From Streptomyces sp. NBC_01317 (GTDB taxonomy: Bacteria; Actinomycetota; Actinomycetes; Streptomycetales; Streptomycetaceae), in the NCBI RefSeq assembly GCF_035961655.1, contig NZ_CP108393.1, positions 7,029,501-7,093,500 on the forward strand: a stretch of 64,000 nucleotides of DNA, given 5' to 3'. The notes under the pieces were generated by a model that saw only the letters and a list, made by a program, of their open reading frames with translations, did no database searches and was not told the DNA's origin. Position 1 is the first letter of the stretch. Each line of letters opens with the position of its first letter. The position numbers and the translations under genes are program-made. This document shows, in pieces, positions 52,929-64,000 of this stretch.

Positions 52929-53942
52929 CTACGCGTGCCGTCCCACCAGTTCCCGCAGCACGTCCTCCATGGTCACGAGCCCTTCCAGTTTGCCGTCCTC
53001 GTCCAGGACGGCCGCCAGGTGCGTACGGCTGCGGCGCATCGCGTTCAGCACGTCGTCCATCGGGGTCGTGTCCTTCACGCGGGCGATCGCCCGCATCGCG
53101 GAGACCTCGAACGGTGTGTCGCGCGGGGCCGCGTCCAGCGCGTCCTTCACGTGGAGGTAGCCGAGGATCCGCCGGGAGGGGTCGACCACCGGGAAGCGCG
53201 AGAACCCCGACTCGGCCGCGAGCCCCTCCAGCGTCTCCGGCGTGACACCGACCTCCGCCGTGACCACCCGCTCCAGCGGCAGCACCACGTCCCGCACCGG
53301 CCGCCGTCCCAGCTCCAGCGCGTCCTGCAACCGCTCGGCCGACCGCTCGTCGAGCACCCCGGCATGACCGGCGTCCGTGACCAGACGGGACAGCTCGTCG
53401 TCCGAGTAGGTCGCCGCGACCTCGCTCTTCACCTCCACCTTGAGCAGCTTGAGGAGGCTGTTGGCGAAGGCGTTGACCGTGAAGATCACCGGACGCAGCC
53501 CCCGGGCGACGGCGACCAGCGGCGGGCCGAGCGCGAGCGCGAGCCGGACGGGGCTGGCCAGGGCGATGTTCTTCGGCACCATCTCGCCCAGCAGCATGTG
53601 CAGATAGGTCGCCAGGATGAGGGCGATTGCGAAGGAGAACGGGTGGATCAGTCCGTGCGGCAGGCCCACCGCGTCGAAGAGCGGTTCCAGCAGATGGGCG
53701 ATGGCGGGCTCGGCGACGATGCCGAGCACCAGCGTGCACAGGGTGATGCCGAGCTGCGCCGCCGCCAGCAGGGCCGCCACGTGCTCCAGCCCCCAGAGGA
53801 CGCTGCGCGCCCGGCGGTTCCCCGCCTCGGCCTCGGGCTCGATCTGGCTGCGCCGTACGGAGATGAGGGAGAACTCGGCGCCGACGAAGAGGGCGTTGAG
53901 GGCGATCGTGAGCAGTCCCACGATCAGCTGGACGGCGGTCAT
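52929..53942 (-). CDS. CNNM/CBS-domain (hemolysin-like) transporter, second gene
   Basis: A 337-residue membrane protein of the CNNM/CorC/TlyC family. Three helices of DUF21 cover about residues 1-140 (GAEFSLISVRRSQIE is the family opening), followed by two CBS domains. The C-terminal CorC/HlyC domain found in the upstream paralogue is missing, so it is a shorter version. Related proteins export Mg or Co ions. It starts on the stop of the upstream gene (overlap at 53939-53942), and the two probably form a heterodimer. Confidence 0.88.
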   Translation of the reverse strand: MTAVQLIVGLLTIALNALFVGAEFSLISVRRSQIEPEAEAGNRRARSVLWGLEHVAALLAAAQLGITLCTLVLGIVAEPAIAHLLEPLFDAVGLPHGLIHPFSFAIALILATYLHMLLGEMVPKNIALASPVRLALALGPPLVAVARGLRPVIFTVNAFANSLLKLLKVEVKSEVAATYSDDELSRLVTDAGHAGVLDERSAERLQDALELGRRPVRDVVLPLERVVTAEVGVTPETLEGLAAESGFSRFPVVDPSRRILGYLHVKDALDAAPRDTPFEVSAMRAIARVKDTTPMDDVLNAMRRSRTHLAAVLDEDGKLEGLVTMEDVLRELVGRHA

Positions 53943-55336
53943 CGGCCGCCCCGCTCGTCCGGGGTGGGCGGAGCGTCGCCGTCGCCGCCGGTCGTGCCCT
54001 TGTCACCGTCGCCGCCCTCGTCGTCATCCGTAGGAAGCGGCGCCCGCAGCAGCAGCCGTGCCGCCCGGCGGCCCGTGTCGTCCACCACTTCCAGCTGCCA
54101 CCGCGCCACGTCGAGGTGGTCGCCCCTGGCCGGGATCCGCCCCAGCGAGGCCGCCACCAGCCCGGCGAGAGTCTCGTACGGCCCTTCGGGCATCCGCAGC
54201 CCGATCGTCTCCAGCTGGTCGGAGCGGGCCGCGCCGTCCGCCGACCAGAGCCGCCGGCCGCGCGCGTCCTCGCCGACCGGCGCCAGGTCCGAGGTCTCGT
54301 GCGGATCGTGCTCGTCCCTGACCTCGCCGACGACCTCCTCGACGATGTCCTCCAGCGTCGCCACCCCGGCCGTACCCCCGTACTCGTCGATCACGACGGC
54401 CATCGTCATCCCCGCCGACAACCGGTCGAGGAGCTGGTCCACCGTCAGCGACTCGGGGACCAGCAGCGGCTCGCGCAGCAGCTCGGACACCGGCCGCCGG
54501 GGCCTCTCCTCCGCCGGGACGGCCAGCACGTCCTTGATGTGGGCGATGCCGACGACGGTGTCCAGGCTGTCGCGGTAGACGGGGAAGCGGGAGAGCCCGG
54601 TGGCGCGCGTGGCGTTGGCGACGTCCTCCGCCGTCGCCCGCACGTCGAGGGCGATCACCTGCACGCGGGGCGTCATCACGTTCTCCGCCGTCAGCGACGA
54701 CAGGCTCAGGGTCCGTACGAACAACTCCGCCGTGTCCGCCTCCAGCGCGCCCTCCTTCGCGGAGTGCCGCGCCAGGGCGACCAGCTCCTGCGGGCTGCGG
54801 GCGGTGGCCAGCTCCTCGGTCGGTTCCATGCCGAGAGCTTGCACGACGCGGTTCGCGGTGTTGTTGAGATGGGAGATGAAGGGCTTGAAGGCCAGGGTGA
54901 AGTACCGCTGAGGAGTGCCCACCGCCGTGGCGACGGCGAGCGGGGAGGAGATCGCCCAGTTCTTGGGGACGAGCTCGCCGATGACCATCAGGAAGACCGT
55001 CGACAGGGCCGTGCCGATCACCAGGGCCACCGAGGACGCGACGGAACGGGACAGCCCGGCGTCCTCGACGGGCCCGCGCAGGAGCTTGCCGAGCGACGGT
55101 TCGGCGAGCATGCCGACGACCAGATTGGTGACGGTGATGCCGAGTTGGGCGCCCGAGAGCTGGAAGGTGAGGCTCCGTACGGCCTCCAGGGCGCCGGCGG
55201 CCCCCCGCCGGCCTTCGTCCGCCGCCCGCTCCAGCTCACCGCGCTCGACGGTGGTGAGGGAGAACTCCGCCGCGACGAAGGCGCCGCAGGCGAACGACAG
55301 CAGTACCGCCCCGACCAGCAGGAGTGCCTCGGTCAT
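53939..55336 (-). CDS. CNNM/CBS-domain (hemolysin-like) transporter, first gene
   Basis: A 465-residue membrane protein. DUF21 helices cover about residues 1-180 (AAEFSLTTVERGELE opening), then two CBS domains and a C-terminal CorC/HlyC domain (GRRLWSADGAARSDQLE region onward), and a long acidic tail. Likely magnesium or cobalt efflux, or membrane integrity, by homology. GGAGGGG lies 4 bases before the ATG at 55336. That Shine-Dalgarno is inside a potential stem with sequence upstream (55342-55389), so translation may be controlled. Confidence 0.9.
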   Translation of the reverse strand: MTEALLLVGAVLLSFACGAFVAAEFSLTTVERGELERAADEGRRGAAGALEAVRSLTFQLSGAQLGITVTNLVVGMLAEPSLGKLLRGPVEDAGLSRSVASSVALVIGTALSTVFLMVIGELVPKNWAISSPLAVATAVGTPQRYFTLAFKPFISHLNNTANRVVQALGMEPTEELATARSPQELVALARHSAKEGALEADTAELFVRTLSLSSLTAENVMTPRVQVIALDVRATAEDVANATRATGLSRFPVYRDSLDTVVGIAHIKDVLAVPAEERPRRPVSELLREPLLVPESLTVDQLLDRLSAGMTMAVVIDEYGGTAGVATLEDIVEEVVGEVRDEHDPHETSDLAPVGEDARGRRLWSADGAARSDQLETIGLRMPEGPYETLAGLVAASLGRIPARGDHLDVARWQLEVVDDTGRRAARLLLRAPLPTDDDEGGDGDKGTTGGDGDAPPTPDERGGR

Positions 55337-55428: not shown

Positions 55429-55947
55429 TCACCCGTCCAGCGGCTGTTCCAGTGCGTCCAGGACCACACCGGCGACCTCCCCGGGGGTGCGGCCCCCGGT
55501 GCTGACGACAACCCGGGCGACCCCGGTGTAGAGCGGGCGGCGCCGCTCCACCAGCCGGCGCCATCGCGGGCCCGGATCCCCCGCCAGCAGGGGGCGCGTG
55601 CCGTCGTGGCCGATCCGCCGCACGGCCTCGGCGGGGCCGACGTCGAGGAAGACGACCGGCAGCGCCGCCAGCAGCGCCCGGGTCCCGGCGTCCAGCACCG
55701 CGCCGCCACCCAGCGCCAGCACCCCGGTGTGCTCCCGGACAGCGGCTCGTACGGCCTCCCGTTCCCGGGCGCGGAACCGCGCCTCGCCCTCGTCGGCGAA
55801 GATCTCGGCGACGGTCCTGCCCGCCCCCCGCGCGATGTCGCGGTCGGTGTCGCGGAAGGCGGCGCCCAGCCGCTCGGCCAGCAGCGCGCCCACCGTCGTC
55901 TTGCCCGCGCCCGGCGGACCGACCAGCACCACGGCCGGGCCGCTCAC
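55429..55947 (-). CDS. aroK: shikimate kinase, cluster-associated copy
   Basis: A 172-residue shikimate kinase. It phosphorylates shikimate with ATP at the fifth step of the shikimate pathway. P-loop GPPGAGKTT at residues about 9-17, shikimate-binding Asp and Arg in [23 protein letters not shown] (about residues 31-53, marker only), FRARE, and GGGAVLD. The GTG start at 55947 overlaps the chorismate synthase stop (GTGA). In the usual Streptomyces locus aroK is followed by aroB; here the CNNM genes follow, which fits a second copy serving a biosynthetic operon. Confidence 0.9.
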
Positions 55948-57128
55948 CGGACGGCGAGGTGGTCGAGGAAGCCCCGCACGTTGCGGCGGGTCTCGGTGAC
56001 ACTGTCGCCCGCGAACTTCTCCGCCACCGCGTCCGCCAGCACCAACGCGACCATCGCCTCCGCGACGATGCCCGCGGCCGGCACCGCGCACACGTCCGAG
56101 CGCTGGTGGTGGGCCCGGGCCGCCTCGCCCGTGGTGACGTCCACGGTCGCCAGGGCGCGCGGCACGGTCGCGATGGGCTTCATCGCCGCCCGTACGCGCA
56201 GCGGTTCGCCCGTGCTCAGGCCGCCCTCGGTGCCGCCCGAGCGGCCCGTGGCCCGCCGGATGCCGTCGGCCGTCGGCACGATCTCGTCATGTGCCACGGA
56301 ACCGGGCACCCGGGCCAGGCCGAAGCCGTCGCCGACCTCGACGCCCTTGATCGCCTGAATGCCCATCAGGGCCGAGGCCAGCCGGGCGTCCAGGCGGCGG
56401 TCCCAGTGCACGTGCGAGCCGAGGCCGACCGGTACGCCGTACGCGAGGACCTCGACCACCCCGCCCAGGGTGTCGCCCTCCTTCTGGGCCAGGTCGACGG
56501 CCTCGACCATGGCCCGGCCGGCCTCCGGGTCCAGGCAGCGGACCGGGTCGGCGTCGAGCCGGGCCACGTCGGACGGGAGGGGGCGGACACCGACGGGGGC
56601 CTTGGCCGTGGCCAGTTCCACGACGTGCGAGACGATATCGATCCCGGTCGTCACCTTCAGGTACGAGCGGGCCACCGCGCCGAGCGCGACCCTGGCCGCG
56701 GTCTCCCGGGCGGACGCCCGTTCCAGGACCGGCCTGGCCTCGTCGAAGCCGTACTTCTGCATGCCCGCCAGATCCGCGTGCCCGGGCCTGGGACGGGTCA
56801 GCGGGGCGTTGCGGGCCAGCGGCGCCAGTTCCGCGCCTGCGACGGGATCGGCCGCCATCACCTTCTCCCACTTGGGCCACTCGGAGTTCCGCACCATGAC
56901 CGCCACCGGGGAGCCGAGCGTGCGCCCGTGCCGTACGCCACCGAGGAAGGTGACCTCGTCCCGCTCGAACGTCATCCGCGCGCCCCGGCCGTGGCCGAGC
57001 CGCCGCCGTGCCAGCGCGTCCGCCACCATGTCCGTGGTGACGGGGACCCCGGAGGGCAGCCCCTCCAGCGTCGCCACCAGCGCGGGGCCGTGCGACTCTC
57101 CCGCCGTCAGCCACCGCAATCTGCTCAA
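55944..57128 (-). CDS. aroC: chorismate synthase, cluster-associated copy
   Basis: A 394-residue FMN-dependent chorismate synthase, converting EPSP to chorismate. Motifs: [20 protein letters not shown] at the N-terminus, [18 protein letters not shown], and later [22 protein letters not shown], all standard. The start is TTG at 57128: GAGGAGGA ends 3 bases before it, and the protein then begins as in the family. It lies 19 bp after aroA and overlaps aroK, so it is part of the same transcript as phzC-phzD-phzE. Confidence 0.93.
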
Positions 57129-57147
57129 CGGTCCTCCTCGGTTCTTG

Positions 57148-58515
57148 TCACTGCCGGTGTGGGGCCGGGGTCGCCGCCCCGCTGGTCGCGAGGGCCCCGC
57201 CCGCGTCGTACGCGGGAGGTTCGTACTCCGGGCAGAGCCGGTTCAGCTCGGCGTGGAAGCCGGGGAAGGTCTTGCCGACACAGCCCGGGTCGTCGAGCGT
57301 GAGGACACCGGGCGCGCCCAGGCCGAGGACGGAGAACGCCATGGCGATCCGGTGGTCCCGGTGGCAGGCGATCAGCGCCGCGTCCGGCCTGCCCGGGTGG
57401 ACGGTCAGCCAGTCGGGGCCGGACTCCGTGACCACCCCGCACGCCGCCAGGTTCCGGGCGACGACCGCGATCCGGTCCGACTCCTTCAACCGGGCGTGCC
57501 CGATGCCGCGGATGGTGAGGGGGGCGTCGGCCAGCGGCGCGATCGCGGCCAGGGTCATGAACGTGTCCGAGATGTCGCCCATGTCGATGTCGAAGCCGCC
57601 TCTGAGACGCCCGGTGCTGGTGACGGTCGTCGCGTCCCCGGTCACCTCCACCCGGGCGCCGGCCCGGCGCAGCACCTCGACGAACCGGAGATCGCCCTGG
57701 AGGCTGCCGGTGCCGAGGCCGGGAACCGTGACCGTACGGCCGGTGACCGCGGCCGCCGCGAACAGGTAGGAGGCGGTGGAGGCGTCCGGCTCGACCATGA
57801 GGTCGGCGGCCCGGTATCCGCCGGGCCGGACCTCGATCCTTCCGTCCGGGCCCTCGGCGGCCTCCGACCCGAAGTGCCGCATCAGCGCGAGGGTCATGCC
57901 GATGTAGGGGCGGCTGACCAGTCCGGCGACGTCGATCACCAGCGGGGTACGGAAGAGAGGCGCGGCCATGAGCAGCCCGCTCAGGTACTGGCTGCTCAGT
58001 GAACCGTCCAGGGCGATCCGGCCGCCGTCGAGCCCCGCGGCGTCCACCACCAGGGGCAGGGAACTCCCCGGCGCCGTCCGGACGGTGGCGCCGAGGCGGG
58101 TGAGGGCGTCCGTCAACGGGCGCGACGGACGCGCGCGCAGTTGCGCGGAGCCGTCGAAGAGGAAGCTCCCCGTTCCCGCCGCGGCGAAGGGCGGCAGGAA
58201 GCGGGCCGCCGTTCCGGCGTCGGCGCACCAGACCCGGCCGGGCCCGGTGGGGCCGCCGCCCCCTCCGGTGACGTCCCAGTACGCGTCGTGCGGGGCGGCG
58301 TCCACCCGGATGCCGAGGTCGGTCAGCGCCGTACGGAAGGCGAGGGTGTCGTCACTGACCAGCGGGGCCCGGAGCCTGGTGGTGCCGACGGCCGCGGCGG
58401 CCAGCAGCAGGGCCCGGTTGGTGATGCTCTTCGAGCCCGGGACCCGGGCCGTGAAGGGGACGAGGGGAGGGGCCGGCCGGGACGGGCCGGCGCGGTCGGG
58501 GGGACGGACACTCAT
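57148..58515 (-). CDS. aroA: EPSP synthase (3-phosphoshikimate 1-carboxyvinyltransferase), cluster-associated copy
   Basis: A 455-residue EPSP synthase. It joins PEP to shikimate 3-phosphate. Motifs: [17 protein letters not shown] near residues 25-41, [11 protein letters not shown] (phosphate loop, with Phe where E. coli has Pro, as in other actinobacteria), [26 protein letters not shown] region around residue 312, and ESDRI. The C-terminal 35 residues are a Pro/Ala-rich extension without similarity. The ATG at 58515 was chosen at the family's start; longer in-frame versions read through the spacer. The gap to phzE is 59 bp. Confidence 0.93.
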
Positions 58516-58574
58516 GAGGGGGGTCCTCCGGGCATGTCGAGCGGGCGTGCGGGCGCGCGGTCGGCGACGGGCCG

Positions 58575-60488
58575 TCAGTCGGCCGGCACCTCGGCCAGCA
58601 TGTCGGCCAGCAGCGCCCCGACGAGGCGCACACCGTCCTCGGTGAGTACCGACTCGGCGTGGAACTGGAGCGAGGCGAAGTGCGGGCCGCGCAGGGCGTG
58701 GACCTCTCCGGTCTCCGGGTCCCGGCTCACCTCCACCTGGCCGACGCCCTCGCACGTGGCCCCGTCCTCGGCGGCGCGGGCGGCGAACGTGTTGTAGAAG
58801 CCGACCCGTTCCCGGGCGCCGAAGAGGTCGATCTCCCGCTGCACCCCCTGGTTCGGCACCTTCCTGCGGACCAGCGGGAAGCCGAGCCGCCTGCTGAGCA
58901 CCTGGTGACTCAGGCACACGGCGAGGAACGGCCGCCGCTCGTCGAGCAGTCCGCCGATCGCCGACGACAGGTGGGCGATCTTGGGGTGGTTCGTCTCACG
59001 GGGGTCGCCCGGGCCCGGGCCCATGACAACGAGGTCGTAGCCGTCCGTGGAGTACGGCTCGTCGAAGCGCCGGACCGTCACCGACAGCCCCAGGGAGCTG
59101 AGTTGGTGGTCGATCATCGAGGTGAAGGTGTCCTCGGCGTCCACGACCAGCACACGCCGGCCCGCCAGGACCGGTTCCGGCCGGAGCCGCGCCGCGTCCT
59201 CGGCCAGCCAGAAGCCGGCGATGGTCGCGTTGCGCCGTTCCAGGGCGGCCAGGACGGCCGGGTGTTCGGCCAGCGGGACCGGGCCGTCCGTCCGCAGAGC
59301 CGCGAGCAGCCCGGCCGCCTTGGCCCGGGTCTCGGCCACCTCGGACGCGGGATCGGAGTGGCGTACCAGCGTGGCGCCCACGCCTATCCGCATGCGTCCC
59401 CGGTCGCTGATGTCGGCGGTACGGATGAGGATGGACGAGTCCAGGGTCGGGCCGCCGTGCTCGTCGTGCCCGATGAGGGCGACCACACCGCTGTAGTAAC
59501 CCCGGCCCTGCGGCTCGTACTTGTTGATGACCCGGCACGCGCTCTCCAGCGGGCTGCCGGTGACCGTGGGGGCGAACATCGTCGCCCGGAGGATCTCGCG
59601 CGGGTCGCGTGCCGTGCGGCCCTCGATGAAGTACTCGGTGTGCGCGAGCCGGGCCATCTCCTTGAGGTACGGGCCGACCACCCGGCCGCCCGACTCGCAG
59701 ATCCGGGCCATCATCTTGAGTTCCTCGTCGACGACCATGTACAGCTCGTCGGCCTCCTTGCGGTCGGCGAGGAAGTCCATCACCTCCGGCAGGGTGGGGC
59801 CGGACGGCGGGTAACGGTAGGTGCCGCTGATGGGATTCATGACGGCGTTGCCGCCGGAGACACTGATGTGCCGCTCGGGGGTGGCGCCGACGAAGGTACG
59901 GGTGCCGGTGTGGACGACGAACGTCCAGTAGGCGCCCGTCTCGCCGCGCATGAGCCGCCGGAAGAACGACAGGGCGCTGTGTGGTGTGTAGCCGGTGATG
60001 TCGGCGACGAACGAGCGCTTGATGACGAAGTTCGCGCCCTCGCCCTCGCCGATCTCGTCGGCGATGACCCTGCGGACCGTATCGGCGTAGGTGTCGTCGT
60101 CCACGTCGAAGTGGCCGCCGGCCAGCGTGATCGGCAGGTCGGGGAGCCGCCGCAGTGACTCGGCCACGGGCAGCAGTCCCTGGCCGGTGACGGTCATCGC
60201 GACCAGGGGCTCGTCGTCGTCGGCGCAGGCGAAGCCACGTTCGGTGATCTGCCGGTACGGGACCAGCGCCAGCACCTGGTGACGGGCACCGCCGGGGGGC
60301 GACGAGGCCCCCGGCACGGGAAGGTCCGCCAGCGCGGCGTGCGTCGAGATCTCACCGACCAGGATGTCCAGCGTTCCCTCGCCCGTCGACTCCGGGCGGT
60401 GGAGCAGCGCGAAGGGCGGGGGCACGGGCCCCAGCACCCGGTCGAGCAGCTCCGCGCCCGTCGGTGCCGTCTCCTCGGCCCCGGTCAT
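58575..60488 (-). CDS. phzE: 2-amino-2-deoxyisochorismate synthase, PhzE-type fusion
   Basis: A 637-residue fusion of an anthranilate-synthase-like chorismate-binding domain (residues 1 to about 430) and a class I glutamine amidotransferase domain (about 455-637). The amidotransferase triad is Cys525 in AVCLSHQ and His610-Glu612 in FHAES. The first half has the family motif [12 protein letters not shown], and later [14 protein letters not shown]. PhzE makes ADIC from chorismate and does not remove pyruvate, unlike TrpE. The neighbour phzD makes the ADIC reading much more likely than anthranilate synthase. It starts on the phzD stop (ATGA overlap at 60485-60488). Confidence 0.9.
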
Positions 60489-61153
60489 GCGACGGCCCCG
60501 CGGCCGGCCGTGGCGGCGGATGCTCCGAGCGAGGCCAGGACCTCGCCCGCGGTGGTGACCACGGCGCAGCGCAGCGCCGCGTACTCGATGGCCAGCCGGT
60601 GGTACTCCGCGGAGAAGTCCGCGACGGCGTCGGCCACCAGGAACGGCTGGATGTCGTTGGTGAACGCCTCGACCGCGGTCATCAGCACACCGACGTGGGC
60701 GTACACCCCGCAGACGACGAGCTGGTCACGCCCGTGCTCCCGCATCCGCTCCAGCAGGCCGGAGCGGAAGAACGCGCTGTAGCGCCACTTGGTGAACACC
60801 CAGTCGCCCGGTTCCGGGGCCAGCGGCTCGACCACCTGCCGGTCCGCGGGGTCCACGCGCATGCCGGGGCCCCAGAAGTCCTTGAGCAGCCCGCGCTGTT
60901 CGTCGCTCATGCCGCCCGGCTGGGCCGTGTACGCCACGGGAATGCCGAGCGCGCGGCCGCGCTCGCGCAGCAGGGTGGCGTTCCTCACCAGCGGATCGCG
61001 GACGGCCGGCGGGAACGGCCGCAGGAAGTAGCGCTGCATGTCGTGCACGAGCAGCACCGCGCGTTCCGGGTCCACGGTCCACGTGGCGGTGTTGCCGGGC
61101 AGGTCGCCTGCCACGGGCATCGGGTACGGCTCGATGGGGGGTATCCCCGCCAT
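60485..61153 (-). CDS. phzD: isochorismatase, PhzD-type (ADIC to DHHA)
   Basis: A 222-residue isochorismatase-fold hydrolase. It removes pyruvate from ADIC to give trans-2,3-dihydro-3-hydroxyanthranilate (DHHA). Very close to Phz[15 protein letters not shown] with Asp38, [20 protein letters not shown], and [10 protein letters not shown] with Lys122. The usual nucleophilic cysteine of the superfamily is Gly155 in [10 protein letters not shown], as in PhzD. The ATG at 61153 has AGAGGAAGG before it, which decides against longer in-frame starts. It lies between phzC (116 bp gap) and phzE (overlap). Confidence 0.93.
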
Positions 61154-61167
61154 GACCTTCCTCTCCT

Positions 61168-61223
61168 GGGCGTCATCTGGGCGTCGGGGCGTCCGGGCGT
61201 CGACCGGGCTTCGTCCGGGCGTT
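61168..61223. repeat. GGGCGTC direct repeats in phzC-phzD spacer
   Basis: GGGCGTC at 61168, 61179, 61187 and 61195, then variants GGGCTTC at 61205 and GGGCGTT at 61217. It fills about half of the 116-bp spacer between phzC and phzD. Spacing of 8-12 bp is irregular, so slippage-derived sequence is the simplest reading. Confidence 0.7.
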
Positions 61224-61269
61224 GTCGAGCGGGTCGCCCGGGGGCGGACCTCTCTCCGCGGACCGGACC

Positions 61270-62472
61270 TCAGCGGGTGTCCTCCAGCGCAGAGCGACCG
61301 GTGCTCCACCAGGCCGACATCACGGAGAGGGCCTGGGCCGGGTTGAGCCGCGGGTCGCAGAAGCTCGTGTACTTGGCTCCCACCTGGTGGATCCGGGACT
61401 CGTTCTGGACGCATTCGGTCACGTCGTCGGGGGTCGTCTCCAGGTGGAGTCCGCCCGCGACACCGCCAGCGCCCCTGACCGCGTGCTGGAAGTCCCTGAC
61501 CTCACGGACGACGGTCTGGACGAAGCGGGTCTTGAGCCCGTCCGGGGTACTGACGGTGTTGCCGTGCATCGGGTCGCTGAGCCAGATCACCGGGTGTCCC
61601 GCGGCGCGGACCGCCTCGACCAGGGCGGGCAACCGGTCGGCCACGGCCGCGGCGCCCATCCGGGCGATGAGGGTCAGCCTGCCGCTCTCCCGTCCGGGGT
61701 CGAGCCGTTCGCACAGGGCCAGCAGTTCGCCGACCGCCATCCTGGGGCCCACCTTGCAGGCGACCGGGTTGATGACCTCGGCGAGGAGGGCGACGTGGGC
61801 ACCGTCCACCTGTCTGGTCCGCTCGCCGATCCAGGGCCAGTGCGTGGAGGCGAGCAGCAGCCGCCCCTGTTCGTCCCGGCGCAGCATGGGGATCTCGTAG
61901 TCGAGCAGCAGCGCCTCGTGGCTGGTCCAGATGGGCGCGCCGATACGGGTGCTCCCGTCCTGGTCGCGCCAGCCCAGGTGGCCTACGACGTCGTACGCGG
62001 CCCGGTAGCCCGCCAGCAGCCGCTCCGGGTCGGGGCGCCTGAGGTCGGGATCGGGCTCCGGGCTGTTGACCATGTGCCCCCGGTAGACGGGGAGTTCGAG
62101 GTCCCCGACCCGTTCGGTGGGCAGAGAGCGGGGCTTGGCGAACTGACCGGCCATCCGGCCGGCGCGTACCACCGGCCGGCACGTCTCCATCTGCATGGCG
62201 CCCGCGAGCATGTCCAGCAGCCCGGCCTTGCGGGCGACGTAGCCCGGGGTGCACTCGGCGGGGTCCTCCGCGCAGTCGCCGGCCTGCACCACGTGGGCCT
62301 CGCCCGCGGCCACCTGGGCCAGCAGGGACCGTAACGTGGCGATGCCCTCGGCATCCACGAGCCCGGGACGGGCGGCCAGTTCGTTTCGTACGCGAAGAAC
62401 GTGGGACGCGTCCTCCCACGGCGGCTGCTGGAGCGCCGGTCTGAGCCGAACATCGAGCAGAGCGTTGTCCAT
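61270..62472 (-). CDS. phzC: class II DAHP synthase, PhzC-type
   Basis: A 400-residue class II 3-deoxy-D-arabino-heptulosonate 7-phosphate synthase, the entry enzyme of the shikimate pathway. Motifs: [16 protein letters not shown] near residues 63-78 (metal cysteine), [18 protein letters not shown] [25 protein letters not shown], and SDPMHGNT. The PhzC form lacks the extra N-terminal helices that give aromatic feedback control in the M. tuberculosis enzyme, so it probably works unchecked when the cluster is on. First gene of the operon. GGAGA lies 5 bases before the ATG at 62472; a longer frame upstream is spacer. Confidence 0.93.
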
Positions 62473-62578
62473 TGAATTCTCCAATCGCGAACGGGCGTGG
62501 TGTGCGGTCGCGCCGAGGGCAGAGAGAACGGGCATTCCATGCCTGGTATCGATGAACAGGAGAGCGGAGCAGGGAGAG

Positions 62579-62646
62579 CGGAGAGCAGAGAACGGAGAGC
62601 AGAGAACGGAGTAACGGAGTAACGGAGAAACGGAGTAACGGAAAGC
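62579..62646. repeat. purine-rich tandem repeats (CGGAGAGCAGAGAA, CGGAGTAA)
   Basis: Two exact 14-bp units CGGAGAGCAGAGAA (62579-62606) are followed by four 8-bp units CGGAGTAA, CGGAGTAA, CGGAGAAA, CGGAGTAA (62607-62638) and one shortened unit. All purines lie on the plus strand, so the phzC leader mRNA, if it starts upstream, is a pyrimidine tract. It lies 108-175 bases before the phzC start. Confidence 0.85.
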
Positions 62647-62774
62647 GCGGGAATCCGGTAGGAGCGGCACGAGCCGCCGTACCGGGCCGAATCCGGGCCG
62701 TGCCCCGCGGATCTCCGCAGCGGGCTAAATCATGTGACGAAACGAGGACGGCGCCAACATGCTTGGCCGTACTC

Positions 62775-62807
62775 CGTCAGGTGACGGGTATTCCGTCAGG
62801 TGACGGC
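62775..62807. promoter_or_regulatory. twin palindrome CCGTCA-GG-TGACGG, 19-bp period
   Basis: The perfect palindrome CCGTCAGGTGACGG occurs at 62775-62788 and again at 62794-62807. A third half, TGTCAGG, follows at 62814. The 19-bp period puts both copies on nearly the same face of the helix. It lies 303 bp before phzC and 184 bp before the TetR gene; a dimer or dimer-of-dimers would bind here. Confidence 0.65.
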
Positions 62808-62990: not shown

Positions 62991-63698
62991 ATGGCCAAGC
63001 AGGACCGTGCCGTACGTACACGTCAAGAACTGATCCGTTCAGCCGCGGAGGTCTTCGGCCGGGGCGGGTTCGCGGATTCCTCCGTCACGCAGATATGCTC
63101 CCGGGCCGGTGTGAGCCACGGTGCGCTGCACTTCCACTTCAAGAACAAGCAGGCCCTGGGCGAGGCGGTCGAGGCCGCCGCGGCCCGGATCCTCCTGCAC
63201 ATCACGGGACATGTCCCGCTGCGGCACCCGGCGCCGTTGCAGCTGCTCGTCGACACGTCGCACACACTGGCCGCCCGGCTCTCCTGCGATCCGCTGCTGA
63301 GGGCCGGGTTCGGACTCGGCAGCGACGCGACCTGGCGGGGCGGGGCGCTCCTGTTGCAACAGTGGCAGGACTGGGTCCAGTTGATGCTGACCGTCGCCAG
63401 GAGGCAGGGGAGCCTGGCCGCCGACGTGATGCTCGACGACGCTGTTCACGCCATCACGGCGGTGGTCGCCGGGCTGGAGGTGCTGGGCCGCGACGACGCC
63501 CGTTGGTACTCCCGCCGGGCCGTCACGTCGTTCTGGCGGCTGACGCTGCCCCACCTGGCGGCGGAGGCGGTACGGGCGGGGACCGTCGCGGCGGGCAGTT
63601 CCGCGGTGACCTCGAAGGACGCGGAACCGGCCATGGACGAGGCCTGGCCGGGTGATCGGGGGACGGGGCAGCCCTGTGACGCGCTGTCGGGCTGCTGA
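62991..63698 (+). CDS. TetR-family regulator resembling gamma-butyrolactone receptors
   Basis: A 235-residue TetR protein. The N-terminal HTH (residues about 9-55: AAEVFGRGGFADSSVTQICSRAGVSHGALHFHFKNKQAL, shown here only as parts AAEVFGRGGFADSS and HGALHFHFKNK) has the F-H-F-x-x-K pattern of ArpA/ScbR-type receptors. The ligand half contains WQDWVQLML, with tryptophans where receptors hold the lactone. Receptors repress biosynthetic genes until a lactone or related signal binds. The ATG at 62991 has GGAG 5 bases before it. It is divergent from the phz operon, so it probably controls it, though the C-terminal tail is long and the usual ARE is absent. Confidence 0.85.
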   Translation: MAKQDRAVRTRQELIRSAAEVFGRGGFADSSVTQICSRAGVSHGALHFHFKNKQALGEAVEAAAARILLHITGHVPLRHPAPLQLLVDTSHTLAARLSCDPLLRAGFGLGSDATWRGGALLLQQWQDWVQLMLTVARRQGSLAADVMLDDAVHAITAVVAGLEVLGRDDARWYSRRAVTSFWRLTLPHLAAEAVRAGTVAAGSSAVTSKDAEPAMDEAWPGDRGTGQPCDALSGC

Positions 63699-63748: not shown

Positions 63749-64000
63749 CTACAGCGACGTGAGTGGTTCGGCCCGGTAGGCGCGGTGGAGCAGCTCCACG
63801 AAGGAGGGCGCCTCGGGCAGGTGCACGGAGGCGATCCGGTGCACCGCCACTCCGGGGGTCCACGAGTTCATGACCACGGCCCCGGTCAGCCCGGGCAGGT
63901 CGGCGAGCGTGATCTCCTGGACGCGCTGGGGGACACCCAGGCGGTCCAACTGCCTGCGGACGACGCCCATCGTGACGCCGCCCAGCATCTCGGCGACCGG
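63749..64000 (-). CDS. class IV aminotransferase C-terminal end, cut by window edge
   Basis: The last 83 residues of a PLP-dependent class IV aminotransferase or ADC lyase-like protein. EMLGGVTMGVVRRQLDRLG is the typical helix after the phosphate loop, and the family's end region has an LTNS-like motif, read here as VVMNSWTPGVAVHRIAS. The group includes branched-chain aminotransferases and PabC (ADC lyase), which acts on amino-chorismates. Near phzE and phzD, a PabC-type lyase or an aminotransferase for a side chain are both possible. The gene begins past base 64000 and converges with the TetR gene. Confidence 0.75.
   Translation of the reverse strand, partial: PVAEMLGGVTMGVVRRQLDRLGVPQRVQEITLADLPGLTGAVVMNSWTPGVAVHRIASVHLPEAPSFVELLHRAYRAEPLTSL

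Follow-up and report, generated by a model that had tools for sequence, protein, structure and literature searches.

What becomes of the 2,3-dihydro-3-hydroxyanthranilic acid (DHHA) that an operon in the chromosome of Streptomyces sp. NBC_01317 is predicted to make? The operon, phzC-phzD-phzE-aroA-aroC-aroK, lies at positions 55429-62472 of a 64,000-nucleotide stretch (the window, G000:C1:7029501-7093500; the genome is one contig of 8.07 Mb). DHHA is a branch point with two exits in the literature cited here: PhzF, which leads to phenazines, and DHHA dehydrogenase, which leads to 3-hydroxyanthranilate products. The initial annotation of the window had called the product undefined. The choice is now narrowed by a carboxylic acid reductase (CAR) encoded in the same island and linked to phzD and phzE in two phyla, and by the fact that no close relative of PhzF or DHHA dehydrogenase was found in the genome. 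We consider, with a probability of about 0.6, that the operon forms the precursor-making half of a small secondary-metabolite island in which the CAR converts DHHA, or an acid that arises from it, into an aldehyde for export.

The operon and its linkage to a carboxylic acid reductase

The coordinates bear out that the six genes are consecutive: they are open and collinear on the minus strand and form a single operon, with 4-bp overlaps at phzD/phzE and aroC/aroK and gaps of 116, 59 and 19 bp at the remaining junctions (Table 1). Alignment of PhzD with the solved PhzD 3r77 confirmed that Asp38 and Lys122 are kept and that Gly occupies the column that we take to hold the Cys of cysteine hydrolases. 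The two domains attributed to PhzE were recovered as chorismate-binding and GATase matches; residues 10-628 of its 637 align with the solved PhzE 3r74, and it is 67% identical to PhzE of P. aeruginosa PA7. Judged from sequence, the operon thus holds a DHHA-forming module, consisting of a class II 3-deoxy-D-arabino-heptulosonate 7-phosphate (DAHP) synthase, a two-domain 2-amino-2-deoxyisochorismate (ADIC) synthase and an Asp/Lys PhzD without the Cys; that the predicted product of PhzE is ADIC is argued by the adjoining PhzD. AroA and AroC exceed curated NCBIfam cut-offs. AroK gives clear shikimate kinase matches, yet stays under the cut-offs, as does the housekeeping AroK. The operon contains no phzF, DHHA dehydrogenase, aroB, aroD or aroE, in agreement with the initial annotation, and an Rfam scan of the 50-64 kb part of the window gave zero matches.

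Beyond base 64000 we read on along the same chromosome, continuing the coordinates. The island covers ~20 kb, from window coordinate 55429 to ~75630, which is 11.6 kb past the window end. Its CAR has adenylation, carrier and reductase domains (A-T-R) and scores above the curated cut-off; its true start may lie ~20 codons earlier. The solved CARs 5msc and 5msp, which we take to come from Nocardia and Segniliparus, respectively, have the same three domains.

We then looked at how PhzE and CAR are distributed (G and L numbers denote genomes and loci). For PhzE, the loci of the best 80 of 574 confirmed relatives were fetched. For CAR, 392 Streptomyces-genus genomes were surveyed at E<=1e-300, which gave 40 matches in 38 genomes; 13-20 kb were read around the 39 matches outside our genome, and eight CAR-clade genomes lacking or cut on the phz side were extended, with additional extensions as available for G028, G012, G044 and G344. 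Gene content of relatives was determined by tblastn, as gene calls misframed several of them (G387, G185, G310, L055). A CAR is present in four of the 80 PhzE loci, within the flank in L015, L075 and L077, and just outside it on the same contig in L008. Altogether, PhzE and CAR occur in one cluster in 13 genomes of two phyla: ten of Streptomyces (NBC_01317, G028, G381, G319, G387, G359, G077, G185, JJ66 (G202 = L015) and S. verrucosisporus (L008)), two of Pseudomonas (Irchel s3h17, L077, and the Pseudomonas-genus G536, L174) and one Magnetospira metagenome-assembled genome (MAG; L075). G310, cut by a contig end, is a probable fourteenth. Only two of 398 Pseudomonas genomes surveyed at E<=1e-150 have the CAR, and in both a gene for a class I DAHP synthase comes after phzD-phzE-MFS-CAR. 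The proteobacterial operons share the order phzD-phzE-MFS-CAR and have a divergent TetR gene. An MFS protein 60-76% identical to that of the island was found in 11 of the 13 other PhzE-CAR genomes; it was not found in the stretches read of G028 and L008.

In a CAR tree, which excludes the CAR of L008, the phz-linked sequences fall into a clade with 100/100 support and 17 rows (16 genomes), among them 12 phz-linked genomes of both phyla, and none of the 27 CARs outside it has a phzC, phzD or phzE match in the 13-20 kb read. The phz-linked clade also differs from these 27 other Streptomyces CARs at His252 (Arg in 26/27), Ala830 (Pro in 23/27) and Gly831 (Ala in 27/27). In the open-licence PMC literature we found no paper that joins CAR with phz, DHHA or phenazine, and no description of this cluster.

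The two known exits from DHHA

The 80 PhzE loci were probed with P. aeruginosa PhzF and with a short-chain dehydrogenase/reductase (SDR) of locus L012. The latter was taken as a DHHA-dehydrogenase relative because it is placed between phzC and phzD, as in the caboxamycin and limazepine clusters, where a putative DHHA oxidoreductase, CbxG of cbxF-G-H-I (PMC5481532) and Lim4 of lim3-6 (PMC5958127), is listed after the DAHP synthase and before the homologue of PhzD. PhzF was found in 21 of the 80 loci at 62-100% identity (100% is the probe itself; the 20 others are at 62-80%), and a DHHA-dehydrogenase-like SDR in 45, at 55-100% (again with the probe at 100% and the 44 others at 55-95%; three of the 45 are short, 47-181 aa, or cut). 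No PhzE locus is in both lists. The CAR-cluster regions gave no PhzF matches, and their best SDR matches reach 29-36%.

Reading past base 64000, as the initial annotation had proposed, thus did not turn up PhzF, which is absent from the window and the following 58.5 kb, or a close DHHA dehydrogenase in the island; it did turn up CAR, MFS, aminotransferase, ScbA/ScbR and IS701-like genes. It could be argued that the phz-aro operon feeds a phenazine or another DHHA product through genes elsewhere and that CAR is an unrelated neighbour, since the genome has five places matching the PhzF family (PF02567) and phzDE is not near the CAR in three Streptomyces members of the clade. We hold this to be improbable. 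Four of the five places are only 31-37% identical to P. aeruginosa PhzF, compared with 62-80% for the 20 PhzE-linked PhzFs (the fifth, a short partial match, lies outside this comparison), PF02567 matches also occur in 11 of 14 control genomes, and the linkage of PhzE and CAR extends over 13 genomes in two phyla.

For the second exit, a genome-wide search at E<=1e-40 detected no DHHA-dehydrogenase relative in NBC_01317, G387, G359, G392, G536, G393 or G394, a set that takes in both Pseudomonas genomes, the Magnetospira MAG and JJ66 (the search left out G028 and L008). The island does encode an SDR, beside ScbA, and the corresponding gene directly follows CAR in G381, G387 and G310. If this were the missing DHHA dehydrogenase, the island would make 3-hydroxyanthranilate, a proposal to which we give next to no weight and which was rejected: the protein is only 36% identical to the L012 relative, far from the 55-95% of the 44 others in PhzE loci. 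Moreover, a survey of 295 genomes gave 45 matches to this SDR. In the 30 of these loci that were retrieved (our own and G028 included), Scb genes always adjoin the SDR gene, ScbA in 29, because of which the island SDR most likely belongs to butyrolactone synthesis.

Supply genes, neighbouring genes and a shared operator-like core

The initial annotation had proposed that the operon boosts its own precursor and that second copies of aroA, aroC and aroK elsewhere in the genome would distinguish this from misplaced housekeeping genes. Such copies exist: aroE-aroC-aroK-aroB-aroQ are located at L139 and aroA at L140 (all but AroK above the family cut-off), so that the operon genes are extra copies beside an intact housekeeping set and not the only ones. 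Among seven CAR-cluster genomes, aroC is found twice in the four with a cluster copy (G000, G381, G387, G077) and once in the three without (G319, G359, G185). Two copies are also present in six of seven further genomes with aroC in the PhzE locus; in G794 only the cluster copy was seen (L014 is a MAG). A role in precursor supply is therefore a sensible reading of the extra genes. It is not new: in the lomofungin cluster of S. lomondensis, lomo1-3 are shikimate kinase, chorismate synthase and 5-enolpyruvylshikimate 3-phosphate (EPSP) synthase, the same trio (PMC4549113), and one or more genes of the shikimate pathway or for transketolase lie in the available flank, which is often cut, of 18 of the 80 PhzE loci. 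These comprise 13 aroA, eight aroC, four aroK, four tkt, one aroB and one aroE, with matches covering <35% of query length excluded; L078 is included on a 47% aroE alone.

Across the CAR clusters, aroA, aroC and aroK are all present in our genome, G381 and G387, and two of them in G077. The S. verrucosisporus cluster has aroA plus transketolase where its contig ends, that of G319 has only a partial aroK-like match, at the phzE end, and none of the three genes was seen in the clusters of G359, G185 and JJ66. The S. verrucosisporus transketolase gene (L008:12069-14171) lies between phzE and aroA and would supply erythrose 4-phosphate too; transketolase genes are also found in the PhzE loci L022, L026 and L033. 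Such variable content is what one would expect if the extra genes were chance neighbours or dying duplicates. We think this quite unlikely, given three intact frames in line with phzE, the same trio in the lomofungin cluster and the AroC tree. In this tree, built from 11 AroC sequences of clusters and 13 of housekeeping loci, the two kinds are intermixed: the label changes seven times, the starred branches force at least four changes, and 119-132 of 500 shuffles are as low. The cluster copy pairs with the housekeeping copy of its own genome in G799 and G796 (starred forks) and in G797 (unstarred), and the aroC of our island forms a long branch whose placement is not firm. The interleaving and the own-copy pairings indicate that clusters recruited aroC several times.

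The remaining genes of the island are listed in Table 1. Its borders, the CBS-domain genes and bioD, are our reading of the gene content. ScbA and the ScbR receptors score above cut-off and have a ketoreductase-like SDR linked to them, as in a gamma-butyrolactone locus. The class-IV aminotransferase occurs in eight of 11 Streptomyces clusters (our own, G381, G319, G387, G359, G310, G077, G185); it was not seen in those of G028, JJ66 and L008 and is absent from the proteobacterial operons. We rejected it as a core enzyme, because in 20 of 20 other loci fetched (from 33 others at >=68% identity) it stands without phz, CAR or TetR. A biotin antimetabolite, suggested by the adjoining bio genes, was set aside as well: bioA, bioB and bioD exceed the cut-offs, bioF is slightly under, and the genes look like an ordinary biotin locus, presumably syntenic with that of S. 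coelicolor.

Table 1. Genes of the island and its surroundings, in window coordinates continued past base 64000 (L003 positions where available).
Gene	Position	Strand	Basis or remark
CBS-domain (CNNM/PaeA-like) transport gene	53939..55336	-	taken as left border of the island
aroK, extra shikimate kinase	55429..55947	-	66% identity to housekeeping copy
aroC, extra chorismate synthase	55944..57128	-	83% identity to housekeeping copy (G000:C1:6854103)
aroA, extra EPSP synthase	57148..58515	-	38% identity to housekeeping copy (G000:C1:2827817)
phzE, predicted ADIC synthase	58575..60488	-	chorismate-binding and GATase domains
phzD, isochorismatase-fold hydrolase (predicted ADIC to DHHA)	60485..61153	-	Asp38, Lys122, Gly at Cys position
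phzC, class II DAHP synthase, 400 aa, first gene of operon	61270..62472	-	PF01474, 4.2e-123
ScbR-family autoregulator receptor, divergent from phzC	62991..63698	+	NF041196, 159.8 bits, cut-off 150
Class-IV aminotransferase (PRK09266 family)	63749..64558 (3' part 63749..64000 in window; L003:249-1058)	-	family match
TetR gene, overlapped by aminotransferase gene	pair spans L003:249-1714	-	divergent from MFS
MFS exporter	past 64000	+	gene content
SDR, adjoining ScbA	L003:3334-4098	+	gene content
ScbA	past 64000	-	above cut-off
Second ScbR	past 64000	+	above cut-off
Two IS701-like genes	L003:5992-7188, L003:7382-8590 (window 69492-72090)	+	42% mutual identity
CAR	72250-75627	+	NF041592, 1757.4 bits, cut-off 1300
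bioD-bioA-bioB	beyond CAR	-	right of island

Two copies of the core CACCTGACGGA, spaced by 19 bp, are present on the minus strand at window positions 62769-62806, 330 and 311 bp upstream of the phzC start. A degenerate GGAG-rich tandem array also lies in the phzC leader region (window 62559-62647). Over 122.5 kb, our sequence has three exact cores: the two ahead of phzC and one beyond the island, at 105940. With at most one mismatch and within 350 bp, the core precedes phzC in seven of nine CAR clusters and CAR in four of ten (four of 11 with L008); in our island, a one-mismatch copy lies 141 bp upstream of CAR (L003:8609). It precedes the aminotransferase gene in one of eight clusters; at ScbRa, the match on the opposite strand is identical with the phzC site. 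Upstream of phzC or phzD, the core (<=1 mismatch) was found on the gene strand in 18 of 76 PhzE loci versus two of 76 on the other strand; four of the 80 loci were dropped for short upstream sequence or lack of phzC/phzD. The core was derived from CAR clusters, and two of the 18 positive loci (L008 and L015) are likewise CAR clusters. As a control, the motif was permuted 1000 times; the permuted versions matched 0.5 loci on average and nine at most.

The IS701-like genes are conserved with the cluster, and 27 of the 76 PhzE loci examined for them have such a gene. As the first Asp of the DDE triad, its catalytic role being assumed, we take the Asp of ADETG in the mobile IS701 of this genome. 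None of 40 aligned IS701-like relatives has Asp in this column, two having it one column earlier, and IS2 of the island reads QPM against the ADE of mobile IS701 in a 28% pairwise alignment, so it lacks this mark of an IS701 transposon. Given the conservation and the lost Asp, we set aside the view that these genes are mobile elements; they look domesticated. The genome carries the mobile IS701 element itself twice, outside the island (L210 and L211; G000:C1:1161535 and 1852290), and the copies share 99.9% identity over 1497 bp. Among loci with an IS701-like gene, 11 of 27 have the core upstream of phzC or phzD; among those without, seven of 49 do (Fisher p 0.013, uncorrected for relatedness), which is only suggestive of the IS701-like protein as a candidate binder of the core.

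A possible third use of DHHA

In the pathway that we propose, PhzC, AroK, AroA and AroC would drive carbon into chorismate, PhzE would form ADIC, and PhzD, by close orthology, would hydrolyse it to DHHA. The A-T-R enzyme CAR would then take DHHA, or an acid to which DHHA gives rise, as its substrate and reduce the carboxyl group to the aldehyde, which the cluster-linked MFS pump encoded beside the TetR gene may export. The operator-like core shared by phzC and CAR would link the two halves, probably under butyrolactone (ScbA/ScbR) control.

Several observations weigh against this pathway. In our island, ~10 kb separate CAR from the phz operon, and the two are encoded on different strands. The TetR of the proteobacterial operons is not an orthologue of the island TetR (19% over 67 aa). 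The core is missing at six of ten CAR promoters tested and also at that of L008, and all four CAR-promoter copies carry one mismatch. Ten of the 80 PhzE loci (L009, L011, L018, L027, L035, L056, L067, L072, L085, L087), some cut by contig ends, have no PhzF, DHHA dehydrogenase or CAR in the available flank, so other DHHA fates or cut flanks exist. Three members of the CAR clade are not phz-linked, namely G344 and G044, with p-aminobenzoate-type clusters, and G012, with a DAHP synthase alone; membership of the clade therefore does not fix DHHA as the substrate, and no member with a known substrate occurs among our results. Finally, G381 has a 63% DHHA-dehydrogenase relative at C1:130174, outside its cluster, so that 3-hydroxyanthranilate could be the real CAR substrate there.

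The CAR clusters of G344 and G044 are located at L109/L111/L148. That of G044 encodes a DAHP synthase, PabAB above cut-off and a NodU-type protein and, below the cut-offs, an AurF-like N-oxygenase, a UbiA-like transferase and a P450; the gene content suggests that these two clusters probably make a p-aminobenzoate-derived product with a reduced carboxyl group.

These points bear on an alternative in which CAR acts on 3-hydroxyanthranilate or anthranilate, DHHA being oxidised by an unlinked dehydrogenase or dehydrating, to give an aromatic aminobenzaldehyde. The sister CARs of G344 and G044 share the clade residue His252, and besides the relative in G381 there are others at 40-42% in G319, G077 and G185. 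We nevertheless regard an aromatic substrate as rather unlikely, considering the genomes listed above in which no dehydrogenase was detected, and the Pseudomonas operon, where only the MFS gene stands between those of PhzE and CAR. Because the CAR clade also includes the p-aminobenzoate-type clusters, the safest substrate class is an amino-carboxylate of the chorismate branch.

A more specific version of the DHHA-reducing pathway is offered tentatively. In it, a CAR of a dedicated clade would turn DHHA into 6-amino-5-hydroxycyclohexa-1,3-diene-carbaldehyde, or into aminobenzaldehyde from its collapse, as a small exported aldehyde antibiotic or signal. The core of phzE, phzD, CAR and MFS is common to Streptomyces, Pseudomonas and an alphaproteobacterial MAG, with DAHP synthase in Pseudomonas and most Streptomyces clusters. 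Both Streptomyces promoters would be read by a regulator that recognises the CACCTGACGGA sites, for which a domesticated IS701 transposase without catalytic activity is one candidate.

The limazepine and caboxamycin clusters likewise use DAHP synthase, PhzE-type and PhzD-type enzymes to reach DHHA in an actinobacterial cluster; they have a putative DHHA oxidoreductase, whereas our island has CAR, MFS and aminotransferase instead. With phenazine clusters (P. aeruginosa PA7, L055) the island shares PhzC, PhzD, PhzE and the DHHA intermediate. It differs from them in having no PhzF, the PhzF-family places compared elsewhere in the genome being far under the PhzE-linked identity (the search did not extend to PhzA/B and PhzG). 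Lomofungin is itself a phenazine (lphzGFEDCB), and the consulted part of its paper names no CAR (PMC4549113). The supply argument holds, but the aro trio already has this precedent; what is new is the membership of the operon in a family of DHHA clusters defined by CAR. An island with CAR and without phenazine or 3-hydroxyanthranilate enzymes suggests that DHHA has a third, so far undescribed use.

Such clusters have taken up shikimate genes repeatedly, in effect a natural experiment on precursor supply from which metabolic engineers can borrow. If true, a third exit defined by CAR predicts a new chemotype from an operon of four to five genes, in Streptomyces as well as Pseudomonas, which is small enough for direct expression and testing.

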